Part shown: positions 742 through 26,348 of the stretch, in pieces | How positions within the stretch are numbered: position 1 is the stretch's first letter | How the letters are laid out: each line of letters opens with the position of its first letter | Source: Candidatus Firestoneibacteriota bacterium | GTDB lineage: Bacteria > Oederibacteriota > D2-FULL-39-29 > CAIOVX01 | DNA: 38,105 nucleotides | NCBI GenBank assembly: GCA_903916325.1 | Contig: CAIWWK010000055.1 | Location: 1-38,105, forward strand | Reading direction: 5' to 3' | Translations under genes and position numbers: made by a program | Notes under the pieces: generated by a model | Databases searched by the model: none | What the model was told of the DNA's origin: nothing | What the model saw: the letters and a program-made list of their open reading frames with translations, nothing else

Positions 742-3345
742 ATGAAGACGAACGAGATAAGAAAGTTATACATGGAATATTTCAAGAGCAAAGGACATAC
801 GGTGGTTGCGAGCGATTCGCTCATCCCGTCAAATGACCCGACGCTGCTATTTTCCTCCGCCGGGATGGTCCAGTTTAAACCGCTTTATGTCACGAAGGGG
901 CCTATACCCTACAACACCGCAACCAGCTGCCAGAAATGTTTCAGGACGCCTGACCTGGAAAGGGTTGGACTGACGCCGCGCCACCACACGTTTTTTGAAA
1001 TGCTCGGCAACTTCTCCTTCGGAGATTATTTCAAGAAAGAAGCGATTGAATACGCCTGGGATTTTTCCGTCAATGTCTTAAAACTTCCCAAAGAGCTCCT
1101 ATGGGTAACAATATTTGAAAATGATGACGAGGCCGGAGAAATCTGGCACAAGCATATCGGCCTGCCGAAGGAAAGAATTGTAAAGCTCGGCAAAAAGGAT
1201 AATTTCTGGGGGCCGGTAGGCGGCACCGGGCCTTGCGGACCCTGCAGCGAGATCTACATTGATTTCGGGGAGGAGTTCGGCTGCGGAAAGCCGGATTGCA
1301 AGCCTGGCTGCGACTGCGACAGGTTTGAAGAGTTCTGGAATAATGTTTTCCCGAGCTTCGACGCCCGGCCGGACGGGAAGATGCTGCCGCTGGCAAGGCG
1401 CGGCGTTGACACCGGGATGGGGCTGGAAAGGCTGGCTTCGATATTGCAAAATACAAAAAATAATTATGACATAGATATAATAAAACTGATAGTCCTGGAA
1501 GCAGCGAAACTTACCGGTTCGGAATACAAAAAAGACGCCAAGAAGGATGTTTGGCTGAAGATTATCACGGACCATGTCCGAGCTTCAACATTTCTCATAA
1601 GCGACGGCATTCACCCTCTTAATGAAGGGCGCGGATATGTACTGCGCCGCATCATCAGGCGCGCGGTCAGGTACGGCAAGCTGCTCGGAGAGGACAATTC
1701 GTTCCTCTACAAACTTTCCGGGACGGTCGTTGATATTATGAAAGAGGCCTACCCTGAACTGGGCGAGCGCAGGGTGCAGATATCGGATGTCATCAAGCAG
1801 GAAGAAGACAGGTTCCGCGAAACGCTGAACCAGGGAATCAACCTGCTGGAAGAAGTTATGGCGAAGTGCAAGGGAGTGATACCCGGAGCTGAGGTCTTCA
1901 AGCTGCATGACACCTACGGTTTCCCTCTTGAGCTTACAAAAGAAATTGCCGCCGAGAGAAACCTCAAGGTTGACGAAAAGGGGTTTGAAGCCGCGCTGGC
2001 GGAACAGCAGGAGCGGGCAAGGGGCGCATGGAAAGGCTCGGGCGAGAAGGAACTGCCCGGCATGCTCTCTGAGTTCCCAAAGACTGTGTTCACCGGTTAT
2101 TCCGGAGAAGAGAGATACTCAGGCAAAGCAAATATCCTTGGGATTATAGCGGCTTCCGCAGCCATCAAATCCGCCAAGAAAGACGACGAAGTTCTGATTG
2201 TGCTCGACAGGACGCCATTTTACGGAGAGTCCGGAGGGCAGATGGGGGATGTCGGGCGGATTTTGGGGGATAAGTTTGAAGCGGAAGTAATAAACACGGA
2301 GAAGTTCCAGCAGAAGGTTTTTGTTCACAGGGTGAAGATCCTTCGGGGGGTTGCTTCACCCGGGGATGCTGTTCTTGCCTCGGTTGATATTAAGAGGCGC
2401 AAAGCGATAATGAGAAACCACACCGCGACCCACCTGCTTCAGGCGGCTCTGCGTGCTGTGCTCGGCGATCACGTGCGCCAGTCAGGTTCTTTTGTCGGGC
2501 CTGACTACTTCAGATTTGACTTCACGCATTTTAAGTCCGTAACTAAGGATGAACTTGACAAAATTGAGAACGCTGTCAATGAAAGGATACTCGATAGTCT
2601 AAATGTCACGATGGACGAAATGGATGCGTCGGAAGCCAAAAAGACCGGCGCGCTGGCCTTTTTCGGAGAGAAGTACGGAGATAAAGTAAGAGTTGTCTGC
2701 ATAGAAGGCGTGAGCAAGGAGTTCTGCGGCGGCACGCATGTGAATAACATTGGCAAGATCGGAGTCGTGAAGATAGTCTCAGAGAGCAGCGTCGCCTCGG
2801 GAATCAGGAGAATTGAAGCGGTTTCGGGCGTCGGCGCGTTTAAATTGATAAAGGACAAGGAAAGGATAGTTACGGAGCTCGCCAACAACCTGAAGATTGA
2901 TCCCGCAAAACTTATCGAGCGCGTCGGAAAGATGTCGGAGGAGATTAAGACGCTTGAGAAAGAGATAGTCAGGCTCAAGCGCGGTGAAGGCGCTGTGAAA
3001 ACAACTGACCTGGCAGGAAGCGCGAAAGAGATAAAGGGAATGAAGGCGGTAATCGCCAAGCTTGAGGGCGTAGAAGCAAAGGATATGAGGGACATCGGAG
3101 ACAAGCTCCGGGACAAACTCCAAAGCGGCGTCATTGTCCTTTTCGCGTCAAACGAAGAGAAGACCTCGTACCTTTGCATGGTAACAAAGGACCTGACAGA
3201 TAAGGTAAACGCCGGGAATATAATCAAAGAGATAGCAAAGCTTACGGGCGGAAGCGGCGGCGGCAGGCCGGATATGGCGCAGGGCGGCTGCAAGAAAGTT
3301 GAGGACCTTGACGCGCTTGTAAAGAAAGCCGAGCAGATAATCTAG
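742..3345 (+). CDS. alaS: Alanine--tRNA ligase
   Basis: This 867-residue class II synthetase charges tRNA-Ala. The N-terminus (KTNEIRKLYMEYFKSKGH), SSAGMVQFKPLY and the RRGVDTGMGLERL segment form the catalytic core. The editing domain carries HNHTATHLL-type HxxxH at residues 560-564 and CGGTH at 662-666. The C-terminal C-Ala domain ends with the Gly-rich KLTGGSGGGRPDMAQGG. A Cys-rich stretch near residue 175-195 (GCGKPDCKPGCDCDRF) is the version found in many bacterial AlaRS proteins. Length is standard. The ATG is preceded by AAAGGA at a spacing of 5. It has its own promoter and an unusual structured leader, and a terminator follows. Confidence 0.98.
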   Translation: MKTNEIRKLYMEYFKSKGHTVVASDSLIPSNDPTLLFSSAGMVQFKPLYVTKGPIPYNTATSCQKCFRTPDLERVGLTPRHHTFFEMLGNFSFGDYFKKEAIEYAWDFSVNVLKLPKELLWVTIFENDDEAGEIWHKHIGLPKERIVKLGKKDNFWGPVGGTGPCGPCSEIYIDFGEEFGCGKPDCKPGCDCDRFEEFWNNVFPSFDARPDGKMLPLARRGVDTGMGLERLASILQNTKNNYDIDIIKLIVLEAAKLTGSEYKKDAKKDVWLKIITDHVRASTFLISDGIHPLNEGRGYVLRRIIRRAVRYGKLLGEDNSFLYKLSGTVVDIMKEAYPELGERRVQISDVIKQEEDRFRETLNQGINLLEEVMAKCKGVIPGAEVFKLHDTYGFPLELTKEIAAERNLKVDEKGFEAALAEQQERARGAWKGSGEKELPGMLSEFPKTVFTGYSGEERYSGKANILGIIAASAAIKSAKKDDEVLIVLDRTPFYGESGGQMGDVGRILGDKFEAEVINTEKFQQKVFVHRVKILRGVASPGDAVLASVDIKRRKAIMRNHTATHLLQAALRAVLGDHVRQSGSFVGPDYFRFDFTHFKSVTKDELDKIENAVNERILDSLNVTMDEMDASEAKKTGALAFFGEKYGDKVRVVCIEGVSKEFCGGTHVNNIGKIGVVKIVSESSVASGIRRIEAVSGVGAFKLIKDKERIVTELANNLKIDPAKLIERVGKMSEEIKTLEKEIVRLKRGEGAVKTTDLAGSAKEIKGMKAVIAKLEGVEAKDMRDIGDKLRDKLQSGVIVLFASNEEKTSYLCMVTKDLTDKVNAGNIIKEIAKLTGGSGGGRPDMAQGGCKKVEDLDALVKKAEQII

Positions 3346-20573: not shown

Positions 20574-21353
20574 ATGACAGAGCATGCCTTTCAATCCGTC
20601 ATGATATTTTTGACCGGTCTAATATTCGGCAGTTTTTTTAATGTATGCATATACAGAATACCATCAAAACGCTCTTTGATGTTTCCGAATTCCTTCTGTC
20701 CTCAATGCAAGAAACCGATTCAATGGTATGACAATATACCTTTGCTTGGCTATGCCCTGTTGGCAGGAAAGTGCAGGAGTTGCGGAAAGCCCATTCCCGT
20801 AAGATATCCTCTGGTTGAGGCTTTGACGGGAATACTATTTTTGCTCTTGTTTCTCAAATTCGGTGTTTCCTATATGTTTCTCAGAGGTGTTGTGCTCACC
20901 GGGTTTTTAATTGTTATTGGTTTTATTGATTTCGACACGCAATATATTTATGAAGTTACGACAATTCCGCTTGTTCTGGTTGGGTTATTCCTGAGCCTAT
21001 TGCCAGGGGGCAACCCGTGGAATTCGCTGCTTGGAACCGTAACCGGAGCGGGCATTCTTTATGTAATCGGCATGATAAGCATAGTTTTGTTCAAGAAAGA
21101 GGGAATGGGCGGAGGGGATGTCTATCTTGCCGGCGCAATAGGAGCTTTTCTTGGCTGGAAAGGGGCTATCGCGATGCTTTTTCTTTCCTTTATTGTTGGA
21201 GCTGTGGTGAGCGTAGTTTTAATAGGCCTGAAAATATTGAACCGAAAGTCCATGATTCCGTTCGGGCCCTATATAGCGGCAAGCGCGCTTGCCGTGTTTT
21301 TCTTCGGCGATAAATTGATATGGCTTGTAATGCCGCTTCTGCCTCGTAATTAG
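20574..21353 (+). CDS. pilD: Prepilin peptidase (type IV leader peptidase)
   Basis: The 259-residue membrane enzyme cleaves and N-methylates type IV prepilins. The N-terminus GLIFGSFFNVCIYRIP, two zinc-type Cys pairs (CPQC and CRSC, about residues 42-70) and PVRYPLVEALTG are classical PilD. The aspartyl protease residues lie in IDFDTQYIYE and the GGGDVYLAGAIGAFLG motif. About eight membrane helices are expected. The third acidic residue of the usual D-D-D cluster after IDFD is Glu here, probably conservative. ATG has AGGGAT upstream. It heads the pilus gene cluster, with its own promoter. Confidence 0.95.
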   Translation: MTEHAFQSVMIFLTGLIFGSFFNVCIYRIPSKRSLMFPNSFCPQCKKPIQWYDNIPLLGYALLAGKCRSCGKPIPVRYPLVEALTGILFLLLFLKFGVSYMFLRGVVLTGFLIVIGFIDFDTQYIYEVTTIPLVLVGLFLSLLPGGNPWNSLLGTVTGAGILYVIGMISIVLFKKEGMGGGDVYLAGAIGAFLGWKGAIAMLFLSFIVGAVVSVVLIGLKILNRKSMIPFGPYIAASALAVFFFGDKLIWLVMPLLPRN

Positions 21354-21391: not shown

Positions 21392-21451
21392 TATTAATAT
21401 ATTTCCGTAAAAACATTTGTTTTCAATTTGATTTTTAGGGGTGGTGTACAG

Positions 21452-22534
21452 ATGCCGCACATAGGGCTTGACATAGGCTCCTACAGCGTTAAAGCCTGCC
21501 AGATGAAAGAAAAGGGCGGGAAGTACACTCTTGTTAATTTTGGCGTCGCCGATATTTCAGAAGAACTTATAGAGGGAATGGACCCGGCGCAGAAAGATGT
21601 TTTGGTGTTTGACGCTGTAAAGAGAGTGCTTTCCGACAATAATATCAAAGGCACTTCTTTGAGCCTCTCGGTTTCCGGCGATCAGGTTATAGTGCGCTAC
21701 ATAAAACTTCCTTTTATGACCAGGGAAGAGTTAAAGAGCACCATCAGAATAGACGGTGAGCAGTATATTCCTTTTAATATTAATGAATGCGTGCTGGATT
21801 TCTCAATGCTCGGAGAGATAGTGGAAGAAGGGCAGAAGAAAATAGAAGTACTGCTTGTTGCGGTAAAAGAAGAGGTTGTGAACCAGTACCTTTCCCTGGT
21901 CAAGAGCCTCGGGTTTGATATTACCGTCATAGATGTTGACTGTTTTGCGCTGCAGAACGCTTACGAAGCCGTTTATGGCGTCAAGCCGGAAGAAGTTGTC
22001 GCGCTGTTGAACATCGGCGCCAAATATTCCAATATAAATATCATTGAAGGCGGAGTGACAATGTATTCCAGGGATATCCCGTTTGGCGGAGCCCTGCTGA
22101 CAAAGGATATTGCCCGTGAGCTGGCCTGCACTTTCCCGGAAGCGGAGAAGATTAAGAAGGAGACCGGCGGCATCATTATTGAAAGCGAAGAGACCAAGCT
22201 TACAAGGATTCCCAGTAAGGATGACAAGAAAATAAGGATTTACGGGGCTATGGTGCCTACTATAAACAAACTGATCACTGAAGTCCGGAGGGCTTTTGAT
22301 TTCTATGAATCATCCTCTAAGAAAAAATCTATCACGAAAATTGTCCTGTCCGGCGGCACGGCGAAACTGAGGAACATTGATAAATTCATCAGCGAAAGGA
22401 TGAAACTCCCGGTTGAGCTTTTTGACGCGTTCAAGGACGTTGAAAGGGAAGACCCACGGATAGAATTAAAACTGCAGGAAACATATTTGTACGCTCCGGT
22501 AAGCCTGGGACTCTCGCTGCGGAGGCCTAAATAA
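21452..22534 (+). CDS. pilM: Type IV pilus assembly protein PilM
   Basis: The 360-residue cytoplasmic protein has an actin-like ATPase fold. It shows the phosphate-1 motif IGLDIGSYSVKACQ, VALLNIGAKYSNINIIEGG and the adenosine motif KIVLSGGTAKLRNID. PilM links the cytoplasmic motor to PilN and PilO. I use ATG 21452, not the track's TTG 21428: MPHIGLDIGSYSVK is the family N-terminus, with AGGGGTGG 8 bases upstream. The stop overlaps pilN as TAATG. Length is typical. Confidence 0.95.
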   Translation: MPHIGLDIGSYSVKACQMKEKGGKYTLVNFGVADISEELIEGMDPAQKDVLVFDAVKRVLSDNNIKGTSLSLSVSGDQVIVRYIKLPFMTREELKSTIRIDGEQYIPFNINECVLDFSMLGEIVEEGQKKIEVLLVAVKEEVVNQYLSLVKSLGFDITVIDVDCFALQNAYEAVYGVKPEEVVALLNIGAKYSNINIIEGGVTMYSRDIPFGGALLTKDIARELACTFPEAEKIKKETGGIIIESEETKLTRIPSKDDKKIRIYGAMVPTINKLITEVRRAFDFYESSSKKKSITKIVLSGGTAKLRNIDKFISERMKLPVELFDAFKDVEREDPRIELKLQETYLYAPVSLGLSLRRPK

Positions 22535-23625
22535 TGCTTGAATTAAACCTGGTTCCCGAGAGTTACATTAAGGCCAAAAGAATGGCACGTATACTGGCTG
22601 TCGCCATCGGCGGAGGTATACTGCTTATTGCGATACTTGCGATGTTTTACGTCTACACCATGTCGCAGATCTCAAATCTCAAGGGAGACATTAGCAGGGT
22701 AGAACTGGAGAAAAAGAAGTACGCCAAAACACTGGCCGATATAGAACTCTTAAACTCCAAGACCAAGGCGGTGGAAGAGAGGCTCAAATCAATAGACGAA
22801 CTGCAGGAGCAGCAGGCGCTCTGGATACTGCTTGTTGATGATTTCGGCAAATGCGTGCCAAATAACCTGTGGGTGATCTCGCTTAACAATAAAAGGGAGG
22901 CCGGCGGAACAAGGACTTTTTCCTGCTCCGGCATAAGTCTTTTCAAAGAAGTCATCGCAGACCTGCTTGTAAGACTCAATTCTTCAAAGTTCTACCGTAA
23001 TGTGTCGCTTTCCACTATGGCAGAAACAACTTCGGCAGGGCTGCGCGCCTACAATTTCAGAATAACCTTTACCTCGATTGAAGATAATAAGGTCCTGCCG
23101 CAGAGACTTGTGGGGATAAAAGAGGCAGGAAAAACAGGAATCTTTGACGGCACGTATGTCAACACGACGCTCGGCTGCAGCCTTTCAAAGTCTGAAGGCT
23201 GGAATATCTCGGACAAAACTCCTCTGCCGAATATGCTGGCGGTTATTACGAGGGAGAGAAAGCAGAATTCCGGCAAGTTTTCGCCAAATGTGACGCTTGC
23301 CTCAGAGAGGCTAAAGGAGCAATTCAAGGACTCGAAACTGTACGCGCTCTCGGTGGAAGAATCGCTCAAGAAAACAGTAAAAGGCTACGGCAGGATTTCA
23401 GAGCGCGAGATTTTCATAAAGAACCTGCGGTGTTACGAAACCGTCATAATCTTTAGGTCCCCGTCCCGGCTGGAATCCGGCAAGCAGCTAGAAATAAAAC
23501 AGCGCAGGGTCTATTTTGTAAAGAACAACACCGGGTTCGTGATAAGCTGCACGGATGCGACCTCCGGATTTGAATCCGGACGGGAAGATTTCGAATCCAT
23601 AATAAATACTTTCAGAGTTTTGTAG
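22534..23625 (+). CDS. pilN: Type IV pilus protein PilN with an extra C-terminal PsbP/DcrB-like domain
   Basis: Residues 1-185 are a standard PilN: NLVPESYIKAKR, one membrane helix (about 20-45), a coiled coil and a small ferredoxin-like periplasmic domain. PilN is normally about 180-220 residues, but this protein has 363. The added part begins near residue 190 and contains TLGCSLSKSEGWNISD, a long middle helix and the end RRVYFVKNNTGFVISCTDATSGFE...FESIINTFRVL. That arrangement resembles PsbP / DcrB / Mog1-like domains of secreted bacterial proteins. The domain call is pattern-based and moderate. It would place an extra module in the periplasm at the alignment complex. Overlaps pilM by one base. 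Confidence 0.88.
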   Translation: MLELNLVPESYIKAKRMARILAVAIGGGILLIAILAMFYVYTMSQISNLKGDISRVELEKKKYAKTLADIELLNSKTKAVEERLKSIDELQEQQALWILLVDDFGKCVPNNLWVISLNNKREAGGTRTFSCSGISLFKEVIADLLVRLNSSKFYRNVSLSTMAETTSAGLRAYNFRITFTSIEDNKVLPQRLVGIKEAGKTGIFDGTYVNTTLGCSLSKSEGWNISDKTPLPNMLAVITRERKQNSGKFSPNVTLASERLKEQFKDSKLYALSVEESLKKTVKGYGRISEREIFIKNLRCYETVIIFRSPSRLESGKQLEIKQRRVYFVKNNTGFVISCTDATSGFESGREDFESIINTFRVL

Positions 23626-23637
23626 GAAGGCGGAAAA

Positions 23638-24561
23638 ATGACACCACAACAGCAGAAATGGGCGGCAATAATCCTCGGCGTTGGCGCCGCCATATTTTGC
23701 TATGTATATTTTCTTTACCTTCCGCTTTCCGAACAGATAAGCGTCCTCAATAAAGACTTGGCGAAGAAACAACAGGAACTTGACGACGCCAAGGTAAAAG
23801 TAAAACAAATGGATATGCTTAAGGCGCAGAATATAGATCTTGAACGGGATCTTAATTTCACCAGGAAGAGGCTTGCAAAGAACGATGACCAGCCCGGAAT
23901 AATAAAAGAAATCAGCAGAGTCGCGGCAGAGAAGAATGTTGCCATTATGTCCCTTGAGTTCCAAAAGACCGCGCCCGGGCCAAAGGGATTTTATTCAGAG
24001 ATACCTATCAAACTTAGCGTTATCTCCGATTACACCGCTTTCGGCCAGTTCCTGACCGGGCTTGGTTATTCTACCAGGCTTATAAACTGTTTTGACTGCC
24101 AGTTCTCGGCGAACACGGATCAGAAAGGAAGCACCAGTGTTTCGGCAATGTTCAAGGCGTTCGTGCTCACCGGCGACCTTGAGTCCGGAGATAAAACCGC
24201 AAAAGAAGAGATAAATGAGAGAGCCATTGAGCCTCTATTTCGCTACACGCAGGAATCAGGCAAAGATCCGTTCAAATCTCTGTCCGGCAACGAGCTGCAG
24301 CAGGTTGCTTCGGAGCTCAACATTATGTCGCTCCGGCTTGAGAGCGTTGTCGTGCTCAGCAAGACCAAACTCGCCGTTCTTGTCGACGGCAGCAACGTGC
24401 CATATTATCTTATAGGCAGCAAACTTTACAACAAAGATAAAACTGAGGTTATAAAATACATAGAGGGAAGTTTTGATAGCGGGAGAGTTGAACTTAAGCA
24501 GACAGATCCGGTCTCGGGCAGTGTAAAACAGCGTTTGCTGGATATACCCGGGAACCGCTGA
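23638..24561 (+). CDS. pilO: Type IV pilus PilO fused to a PilP-like domain
   Basis: The N-terminal 200 residues are PilO: one membrane helix (KWAAIILGVGAAIFCYVYFLYLPL), a coiled coil and the ferredoxin-like domain containing PIKLSVISDYTAFGQFLTGLGYSTRLIN. From residue 209 the sequence KDPFKSLSG opens a region with NIMSLRLESVVVLSKTKLAVLVDGSNVPYYLIGSKLYN. It resembles PilP, the lipoprotein that joins PilNO to the PilQ secretin and carries an RDPF motif followed by a beta-domain. No separate pilP lies between this gene and pilQ, so a PilO-PilP fusion is the simplest reading; the PilP part would lack its lipid anchor. GGAAGG precedes the ATG. Confidence 0.87.
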   Translation: MTPQQQKWAAIILGVGAAIFCYVYFLYLPLSEQISVLNKDLAKKQQELDDAKVKVKQMDMLKAQNIDLERDLNFTRKRLAKNDDQPGIIKEISRVAAEKNVAIMSLEFQKTAPGPKGFYSEIPIKLSVISDYTAFGQFLTGLGYSTRLINCFDCQFSANTDQKGSTSVSAMFKAFVLTGDLESGDKTAKEEINERAIEPLFRYTQESGKDPFKSLSGNELQQVASELNIMSLRLESVVVLSKTKLAVLVDGSNVPYYLIGSKLYNKDKTEVIKYIEGSFDSGRVELKQTDPVSGSVKQRLLDIPGNR

Positions 24562-24611
24562 AGCATTTAATAATTTTCGTGGCGTTAAGCGCCGATATTA
24601 AGGAGAGAATC

Positions 24612-26348
24612 ATGAAAATCATAAAACTTATCGGGCTCTCGGGAGTGCTGCTTGCCGGCGCGTTATTCGCGCAGGATACGGCTCAGCTCGGCAAGATATC
24701 GGCCTCAGGCGACATGAAAGAGGTGAAGATTTCCGTTCCCATCCAGAAGGGAGATGCTGCAGCCAGTCCTTCTAAAACAAACGCCGCGGTGATTCTGGAT
24801 GTGCTTCCGGCTGTCCTTTCGGCTGCCGGTGAGGAAAAACAAGCGGCAGGGATGCTTGTCACAAAGATAAAATCGGAACAGTACGATAAAACGGTAGTGC
24901 GTTATACTCTTTTTACCTCGGTTCCTTCCGATTTTACCGCTGTCACGGAAAAAGGCAGGATAGTTATTCTGATTAAGCCTTCAATTGTTAAAGCAGAAGT
25001 GCCAAAGCCTGCGGGAACGAAACCTGTTTCCGCAAAACCTGCTGAAGTAGCTCCCGCGGAAGAGCCCCAGTCCTCAATGGATAAGATGACCCAGGTCGCA
25101 GGGGACGAGGTCGCTAAGACCGAGAAAAAGAACTCCGATTCAGAGCTTGTTTTAGGGCATGTTGTCGGCAAGAAAGGAAACATTGACCAGATTGTGGAAC
25201 ACATAAATATATTGAACGCGGACCTGCCTTCGCTTCTGAACATGCTTTGCACCGAGGCAGGTTTCAATCTTGTGACCAGCAAGAGCATCAGCGGGAATAT
25301 TCCAAGTATTCAGCTGAGCAATGTTACGCTCAGGAAGGTTCTTGACCTAATCCTGAAGCAGAACGGCTACGCTTATGAGATAGAAGGCAACATTATCAGG
25401 ATTGCAACGCCGGCTGAGATAAACACAGAAGCAGAATCGGCGCTTCTGGAGACGCGGACCTACGGATTGAGTTTTGCGAAAGCAGCTATAGTGGTCGGGA
25501 CCATTCAGCCGTTCCTCAGTTCCAAAGGAAAGATTCAGGCTGATGCCAGGACCAACGCGCTTATTGTTACAGACATTTCCAAGAAACAGGAGGAAGTGGC
25601 CGACCTGGTAAAAAAACTTGACGCGAAGACTGCGCAGGTCAGCATAGAAGCAAAATTGCTCGATATTAACTATACCGCCGAACAGAATCTCGGCATAAGG
25701 TGGGACATCGAAGGAGGAGGACAGCACAGCCCGATTGGGACAGACATTTATCCTCCCGCCGGCAACTCGGTTTTCCGCGGCACGGTTGCTCCTCCGCAGG
25801 CGACGACCTCAAACGCCGGAACATTGCAATTCGGCGTGGCAGGCAGCACCAACTTCTGGGCCAGCCTGAACGTGCTTATTCAGAACAATGACGCTAATGT
25901 CAAGGCCAGTCCCAGAATCACAACGTTGGATAATACAACTGCCACCATGAATATATCGCAGGCCTACCCGTACCTTTCTTCCTACAATCAGTCAACGGGC
26001 GTGGCGAGCTATTCCTCCGTGGACGCGGGCGTTACGCTTTCGGTTACTCCGCAGGTTAACAGGAATGGTTTTATAACCCTGCAGGTGATACCGACCGTAA
26101 GTTCTGTCGTAAATCCGGGGCCGCCGCCGGTTGTTGATTCCCGTACTGCCTCGACTACCGTGCTTGTCAAGGACGGAGAGACGCTGGTGATCGGCGGAAT
26201 GCTTAGGGACGATGAAACAATAACGACGGCGAAAGTTCCGATACTGGGAGACATACCGCTGCTCGGAGCCCTGCTTTTCCAGAGCAGGTATACGAAGGTC
26301 ACGAAGAGAGACCTTGTGGTTCTTATCACGCCGCGTATACTGGAATAG
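24612..26348 (+). CDS. pilQ: Type IV pilus secretin PilQ
   Basis: The 578-residue outer-membrane secretin has a signal peptide (MKIIKLIGLSGVLLAGALFAQ) and an N-terminal AMIN-like beta domain (about 25-120). A Lys/Pro/Ala-rich linker (130-165) follows, then an N0/STN domain (about 195-260), one Secretin_N domain (TYGLSFAKAAIVVGTIQPFL) and the secretin core ending VPILGDIPLLGALLFQSRYT...LVVLITPRI. I take ATG 24612 (AAGGAGAG at good spacing) over the track's upstream 24579, so the signal peptide is N-terminal. Only one Secretin_N is present. A small GGCG-TTAAG-CGCC hairpin (24581-24593) lies just ahead. A strong terminator closes the operon. Confidence 0.95.
   Translation: MKIIKLIGLSGVLLAGALFAQDTAQLGKISASGDMKEVKISVPIQKGDAAASPSKTNAAVILDVLPAVLSAAGEEKQAAGMLVTKIKSEQYDKTVVRYTLFTSVPSDFTAVTEKGRIVILIKPSIVKAEVPKPAGTKPVSAKPAEVAPAEEPQSSMDKMTQVAGDEVAKTEKKNSDSELVLGHVVGKKGNIDQIVEHINILNADLPSLLNMLCTEAGFNLVTSKSISGNIPSIQLSNVTLRKVLDLILKQNGYAYEIEGNIIRIATPAEINTEAESALLETRTYGLSFAKAAIVVGTIQPFLSSKGKIQADARTNALIVTDISKKQEEVADLVKKLDAKTAQVSIEAKLLDINYTAEQNLGIRWDIEGGGQHSPIGTDIYPPAGNSVFRGTVAPPQATTSNAGTLQFGVAGSTNFWASLNVLIQNNDANVKASPRITTLDNTTATMNISQAYPYLSSYNQSTGVASYSSVDAGVTLSVTPQVNRNGFITLQVIPTVSSVVNPGPPPVVDSRTASTTVLVKDGETLVIGGMLRDDETITTAKVPILGDIPLLGALLFQSRYTKVTKRDLVVLITPRILE

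Follow-up and report, generated by a model that had tools for sequence, protein, structure and literature searches.

PilN and PilO, components of the inner-membrane alignment complex of type IVa pili, form heterodimers with periplasmic cores, and PilP bridges PilNO to the secretin PilQ (PMC5805733). In Pseudomonas aeruginosa, the AMIN domains of PilQ bind peptidoglycan and are needed for localisation of PilO (PMC5285504). The Mog1p/PsbP-like superfamily (PsbP, PsbP_2, DcrB, LpqN/MTC28) has standalone secreted members in other genomes of about 174-187 aa. P. aeruginosa PA1624 is a two-domain periplasmic protein with a domain of this kind; as far as the excerpted text of PMC7716261 goes, its partner is OmpA-like and no pilus link is made. 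Here we describe a gene of Candidatus Firestoneibacteriota, pilN::psbP, in which a PsbP/DcrB-like domain is likewise part of a two-domain protein, but the partner is PilN.

A PilN with a second folded domain

The window, that is, the whole stretch of DNA analysed, is 38,105 nucleotides long and comes from a 2.24-Mb draft genome. The relevant features, all on the + strand, are as follows.

20574..21353 (+): pilD prepilin peptidase, upstream neighbour (Pfam A24_N_bact and Peptidase_A24)
21428..22534 (+): pilM, probable start 21452 (Pfam PilM_2, 4.6e-61)
22534..23625 (+): pilN::psbP, 363-aa fusion gene (intact ORF; Pfam PilN and PsbP_2; full-length ORF in 7 genomes)
22534..23082 (+): PilN portion, residues 1-183 (PF05137; AlphaFold model; hhalign)
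23083..23136 (+): linker, residues 184-201 (low-confidence model stretch 184-189; sequence)
23137..23622 (+): PsbP/DcrB/Mog1p-like domain, residues 202-363 (Pfam, AlphaFold, Foldseek, dN/dS)
23638..24561 (+): pilO::pilP, with PilO (residues 1-178) and a PilP-like domain (about 190-307) (Pfam PilO, 8.1e-17; hhalign)
24579..26348 (+): pilQ secretin, short form, probable start 24612 (Pfam Secretin, Secretin_N and STN; AMIN undetected)

The gene order is pilD-pilM-pilN-pilO-pilQ, followed by a chorismate synthase-like gene. The ATG of pilN::psbP at 22534 shares one base with the pilM stop, its own stop occupies 23623-23625, and pilO follows at 23638. The same placement, with pilM before the gene, pilO after it and pilQ further downstream, is seen at the loci of five further genomes (G004, G006, G007, G009 and G010). 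A sequence-only reading of this DNA had proposed a 363-residue PilN with an added C-terminal part, and both its coordinates and its length prove exact. That reading had also allowed for a missed frame junction separating two genes; the ORF is uninterrupted in all seven genomes that carry the fusion, which rules this out. The fusion architecture is firm.

The first half of the protein is an ordinary PilN. Pfam PilN (PF05137) matches residues 100-180 (E = 1e-7; 32.4 bits versus a cut-off of 22.8), and hhalign against plain PilNs of the phylum gives 99.7% (E = 2.6e-26), with the alignment stopping at residue 181. The AlphaFold model of this portion has a long N-terminal helix (residues 9-107), comprising a membrane span and a coiled coil, and an alpha-beta domain (112-181). 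Residues N5, L6 and P8 of the NLxP motif are invariant in the seven fusions. Gene order (pilM-pilN-pilO), NLxP motif, long helix and alpha-beta domain are thus all held in common with PilN of the type IVa alignment complex, and by both Pfam and hhalign residues 1-183 are the normal PilN that had been expected of the first ~185. What sets the fusion apart from plain PilNs of the same phylum (about 185-200 aa) is some 180 extra residues, which make up a second folded domain.

The added domain has a predicted PsbP-type fold

Pfam PsbP_2 matches residues 207-362, with an E value of 6.5e-5 for the whole protein. When the C-terminal part is searched alone, the E value is 1.3e-5 and the score, 25.7 bits, is slightly under the curated cut-off of 27. 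Across the fusions, PsbP_2 matches six of the seven domains (best 1.9e-9), and five of seven also match DcrB, PsbP and LpqN; the fused domain of G010 clears the PsbP_2 cut-off even when the whole genome is searched. Modelled alone with AlphaFold, the window's domain gives a predicted fold of good confidence (pLDDT 88.8, pTM 0.85), which we compared to the PDB using Foldseek. There were 41 matches at E <= 0.001, with plant and cyanobacterial PsbP on top (best match PsbP, E = 5.5e-8; CyanoP, TM 0.65/0.74), and these also take in MTC28, LpqN, EagT6, Mog1p, SciW and DcrB. Sequence-only searches of the PDB gave chance matches only, which were discarded. In the full-length model, a helix and an alpha-beta domain are followed by a low-confidence linker and then the PsbP-type domain; pTM is 0.49, and the mutual placement of the domains is not fixed by the model.

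The PsbP/DcrB pattern suspected from sequence is therefore borne out by four Pfam families (PsbP_2, DcrB, PsbP and LpqN) and by fold, and the profile and structure comparisons that had been proposed as a check identify the region as PsbP/DcrB/Mog1p-like. An extended PilN fold, the other outcome that had been envisaged, is ruled out by the separate domain in the predicted structure together with the PsbP-type fold matches. Membership of the Eag (DUF1795) type VI chaperones can also be set aside, as the domain is the C-terminal portion of a membrane protein whose gene lies within pilMNOPQ.

Reading the linker sequence directly, we found no signal peptide or lipobox before the PsbP-like domain. 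With no export signal of its own, the domain should reach the periplasm only via the membrane span of PilN, and for lack of its own signal peptide or lipobox cysteine we do not file it as a DcrB lipoprotein. Compared with the Mog1p/PsbP-like superfamily at large, then, it shares the Pfam families and matches over the whole fold, but differs in being fused to a pilus protein, in having neither signal peptide nor lipobox, and in carrying an invariant pair of cysteines. The two residues, C215 and C339, are the sole cysteines present in all seven fusions; both fall in strands of the modelled domain and probably form a disulfide.

Distribution and selection within the phylum

A PilN match was found in 39 of 45 genomes of the phylum, and a full-length match to the fusion in seven, all from one order (two of family f1 and five of family f2). 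It had been asked whether related genomes share the fusion, and these two families show that they do. Searching with a profile restricted to the C-terminal domain retrieved exactly the same seven of the 45 genomes. The other PilN ORFs inspected in the phylum are plain, at about 185-200 aa. Compared over their full length with the window copy, the six other fusions show either 94% or 30-37% identity; the closest named relative, from a Candidatus Firestonebacteria MAG, is 94% identical over the whole protein.

Purifying selection acts on the PsbP-like domain: for the pair G000 and G004, dN/dS is 0.078 for this domain, compared to 0.050 for PilN and 0.046 for PilM, and the domain keeps 20-odd invariant residues in two families that share 30-37% identity. 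Between close f2 species it changes faster than PilN, with identities of about 73-75% versus 83-88%.

Two f1 genomes (G003 and G005) are without the fusion. In G005 (L053, G005:C65), the DNA matches the window up to 21370, past the pilD stop, and again from 26371, past the pilQ stop; 106 bases replace pilM-pilN-pilOP-pilQ, and the pilD and chorismate synthase-like neighbours are kept. Because f2 genomes have the operon in the same place, this absence is best read as a loss. Absence of the four genes as a block is consistent with one functional unit. G003 has no pilN, pilO or pilD match and only another PilM-like protein, but retains pilB-pilT-pilC, which are also present in the window's genome; its operon was either lost or left unassembled. 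At the G010 locus (L046 3179-4317 (-), G010:C15), pilQ and the chorismate synthase-like gene are separated by two inserted transposase-like ORFs. A second pilus/T2SS-like cluster (L042, G000:C101; L047, G003:C74) contains pseudopilin-like ORFs, a T2SSM_b-like protein and a PilM-like protein of about 563 aa that is extended at its C-terminus.

PilO, PilP and PilQ are remodelled in the same order

The sequence-only reading caught the PilN fusion but missed two further changes in the neighbouring genes. One is that pilO and pilP form a single 307-aa ORF at 23638-24561; elsewhere in the phylum they are separate genes. The C-terminal part of this ORF aligns with PilP proteins that other members of the phylum encode separately (hhalign, 98.6%, E = 1.2e-15), and the PilO::PilP arrangement is seen in 7/7 fusion genomes. 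Fused in this way, PilP has no lipid anchor of its own.

The other change concerns PilQ. In five genomes of the order, PilQ is 571-589 aa long and has zero AMIN domains by Pfam, even at a lax threshold, whereas all five PilQ proteins examined from the phylum's other families measure 775-850 aa and have 2-3 AMIN matches. The PilQ of this order is thus ~200 residues shorter than the others examined. An hhalign comparison to the first AMIN gave weak in-register similarity (7%, E = 0.005), and hence a decayed AMIN-like domain may remain. AMIN (PF11741) and the PsbP-like domain are both periplasmic add-ons of the same complex, but they are unrelated families by Pfam, AMIN being carried by PilQ, N-terminal to N0, and the PsbP-like domain by PilN.

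PsbP-like domains beyond the phylum

We extended the search to 384 genomes. The narrow profile recovered the same seven fusions and five other proteins: four of these stand alone, in open frames of 186-187 aa, and the fifth is a 414-aa frame in G249, which represents another, unrelated lineage. A broader profile, built after the G249 match and including it, had matches in 37 genomes; the score of G249 in that search is accordingly not independent evidence. At eleven of the broader-profile loci we looked at the longest central ORF, a partial survey in which several long ORFs of the eleven-locus table fall outside the coverage and L091 contributes an unrelated hydrolase. By eye, these ORFs combine PsbP-like domains with kinase/PEGA, TPR, protease and M48-LysM modules, and none of them has a PilN-like partner. 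At L093, for example, the ORF at 1291-2778 (-) encodes, again by eye, an M48-type peptidase that leads into a PsbP-like domain and has a LysM-like C-terminus. No further fusion recognised as PilN emerged from the two profile scans of the 384 genomes.

The ORF in G249 (L064 3171-4376 (-)) encodes 402 aa from its first start, with a PsbP-like domain ahead of an STN/N0-type one. The former aligns with the fused domain of PilN::PsbP (hhalign, 72%, E = 3.5e-5). The pilus cluster of G249 (L064, L067, G249:C90) includes PilB/PilT/PilC-type ORFs, a PilM-PilN fusion, two short secretins, a T2SSG-type pilin and a second N0-type protein of 579 aa with AMIN and TPR repeats. With one of the two N0-type proteins carrying AMIN and the other a PsbP-like domain, both domains hold comparable places in this cluster.

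Regarding origin, the narrow profile identified no donor of the domain in the same phylum. PsbP_2 and the broader profile point to standalone copies there in G023, G024 and, once, G008, as candidates only. Mobile carriage was likewise rejected, with no plasmid match and no relative confirmed in viral contigs. Some entries of the plasmid collection, NZ_AP026896.1 and others, are 3.6-4.9 Mb and chromosome-like in size.

In a search of the open-access literature, none of 11 papers that mention both PilN and PsbP dealt with pili in title or abstract, and nothing was found on Firestonebacteria with type IV pili. The idea of a new architecture at PilMNOPQ therefore holds across the 45 phylum genomes, the 384-genome scans and this literature, and what we describe is a new architecture, specific to one clade, of a known machine.

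Proposed role of the PsbP-like domain

In our reading, pilN::psbP encodes the PilN of a type IVa-like pilus, which brings a probably non-enzymatic PsbP/DcrB-like domain to the inner-membrane alignment complex. Its NLxP motif would bind cytoplasmic PilM, the chain would cross the membrane once, and the periplasmic part would pair with PilO. Judging from PilN topology, the added domain is likely periplasmic; given the periplasmic cores of PilNO and the bridging function of PilP (PMC5805733), it should sit near PilP and the secretin base. A ring of such domains might then form beside the PilP-like domain of PilO::PilP and PilQ's N0 region, where it could steady the PilN-PilOP-PilQ junction or tie the junction to the cell wall or outer membrane, perhaps taking over the work done elsewhere by the AMIN domains of PilQ. 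That the domain is a docking or anchoring module of this sort, with AMIN's work transferred to it, is the reading we favour, at middling confidence. The overall pattern suggests that part of the anchoring/docking job of the pilus has shifted onto PilN in this order.

A more specific version is tentative and somewhat doubtful. Here, envelope attachment has moved from the AMIN domains of PilQ to the PsbP-like domain of PilN, PilP is tethered to PilO rather than by lipid, and the PsbP-like domain is a second, independently recruited pilus anchor able to replace AMIN. The PsbP-like N0-type protein of G249 also suggests this and is the sole independent hint of AMIN replacement. Since gain of the PsbP-like domain, fusion of PilO to PilP and loss of AMIN fall on one branch, their co-occurrence counts once. 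One caveat here is that we know of no PsbP/DcrB superfamily member that binds peptidoglycan; another is that PsbP-like domains occur with many partners, so that the partner alone leaves function undefined.

Several other explanations merit consideration. The domain may act as a pure structural clamp, stabilising the PilNO heterodimer and the PilP/PilQ N0 contact with no envelope anchoring, loss of AMIN being unrelated. Proteins of the PsbP family serve as accessory subunits in large membrane complexes (the top Foldseek matches include PSII and NDH-PSI structures), the fusion of PilO to PilP in this order is in keeping with selection for a closer physical link, and in G249 the PsbP::N0 protein places a domain of this kind at the base of the secretin. 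By itself, however, a clamp leaves the absence of detectable AMIN in the lineage unexplained, although that may be coincidence, and we consider this account rather unlikely. We regard as improbable a chaperone-like role in which the domain would cover hydrophobic helices, for instance the N-terminal helices of pilins, in the way that Eag proteins of the same fold do. The structural matches include Eag/SciW complexes (6xrf, 6xrr), and Eag chaperones stabilise the transmembrane domains of type VI effectors (PMC12881460). These matches nevertheless rank under PsbP and MTC28/LpqN-type proteins, and pilin helices remain in the membrane until pilus entry. Eag proteins, moreover, are cytosolic and act there.

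It is similarly improbable that the domain is a periplasmic sensor that binds a ligand or responds to redox state, possibly via C215/C339, and signals to PilM and the motors. The conservation of just these two cysteines, in modelled strands, would suit a sensor, but a structural disulfide accounts for it equally well. Neither a ligand nor a signalling partner nor any other sign of sensing was found, and the context points to docking or anchoring; the suggestion made from sequence, that the domain senses or binds something in the periplasm, is thus still a guess. Least probable of all is an accidental fusion that left a neutral appendage with no function of its own. The faster change of the PsbP part relative to PilN could be taken that way, but the low dN/dS and the preservation of the domain and its invariant residues across two diverged families argue against it.

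Implications

The PilMNOPQ core is usually treated as a conserved part list. In this order, its periplasmic parts have been rebuilt together: PilN has an extra fold, PilO and PilP are fused, and PilQ is without detectable AMIN. Such a lineage amounts to a natural experiment, one that can tell load-bearing contacts from swappable ones, and it raises the question of whether a PsbP-like domain is able to do AMIN's job. For a superfamily with mostly unknown roles in bacteria, the fusion also supplies a pilus context.
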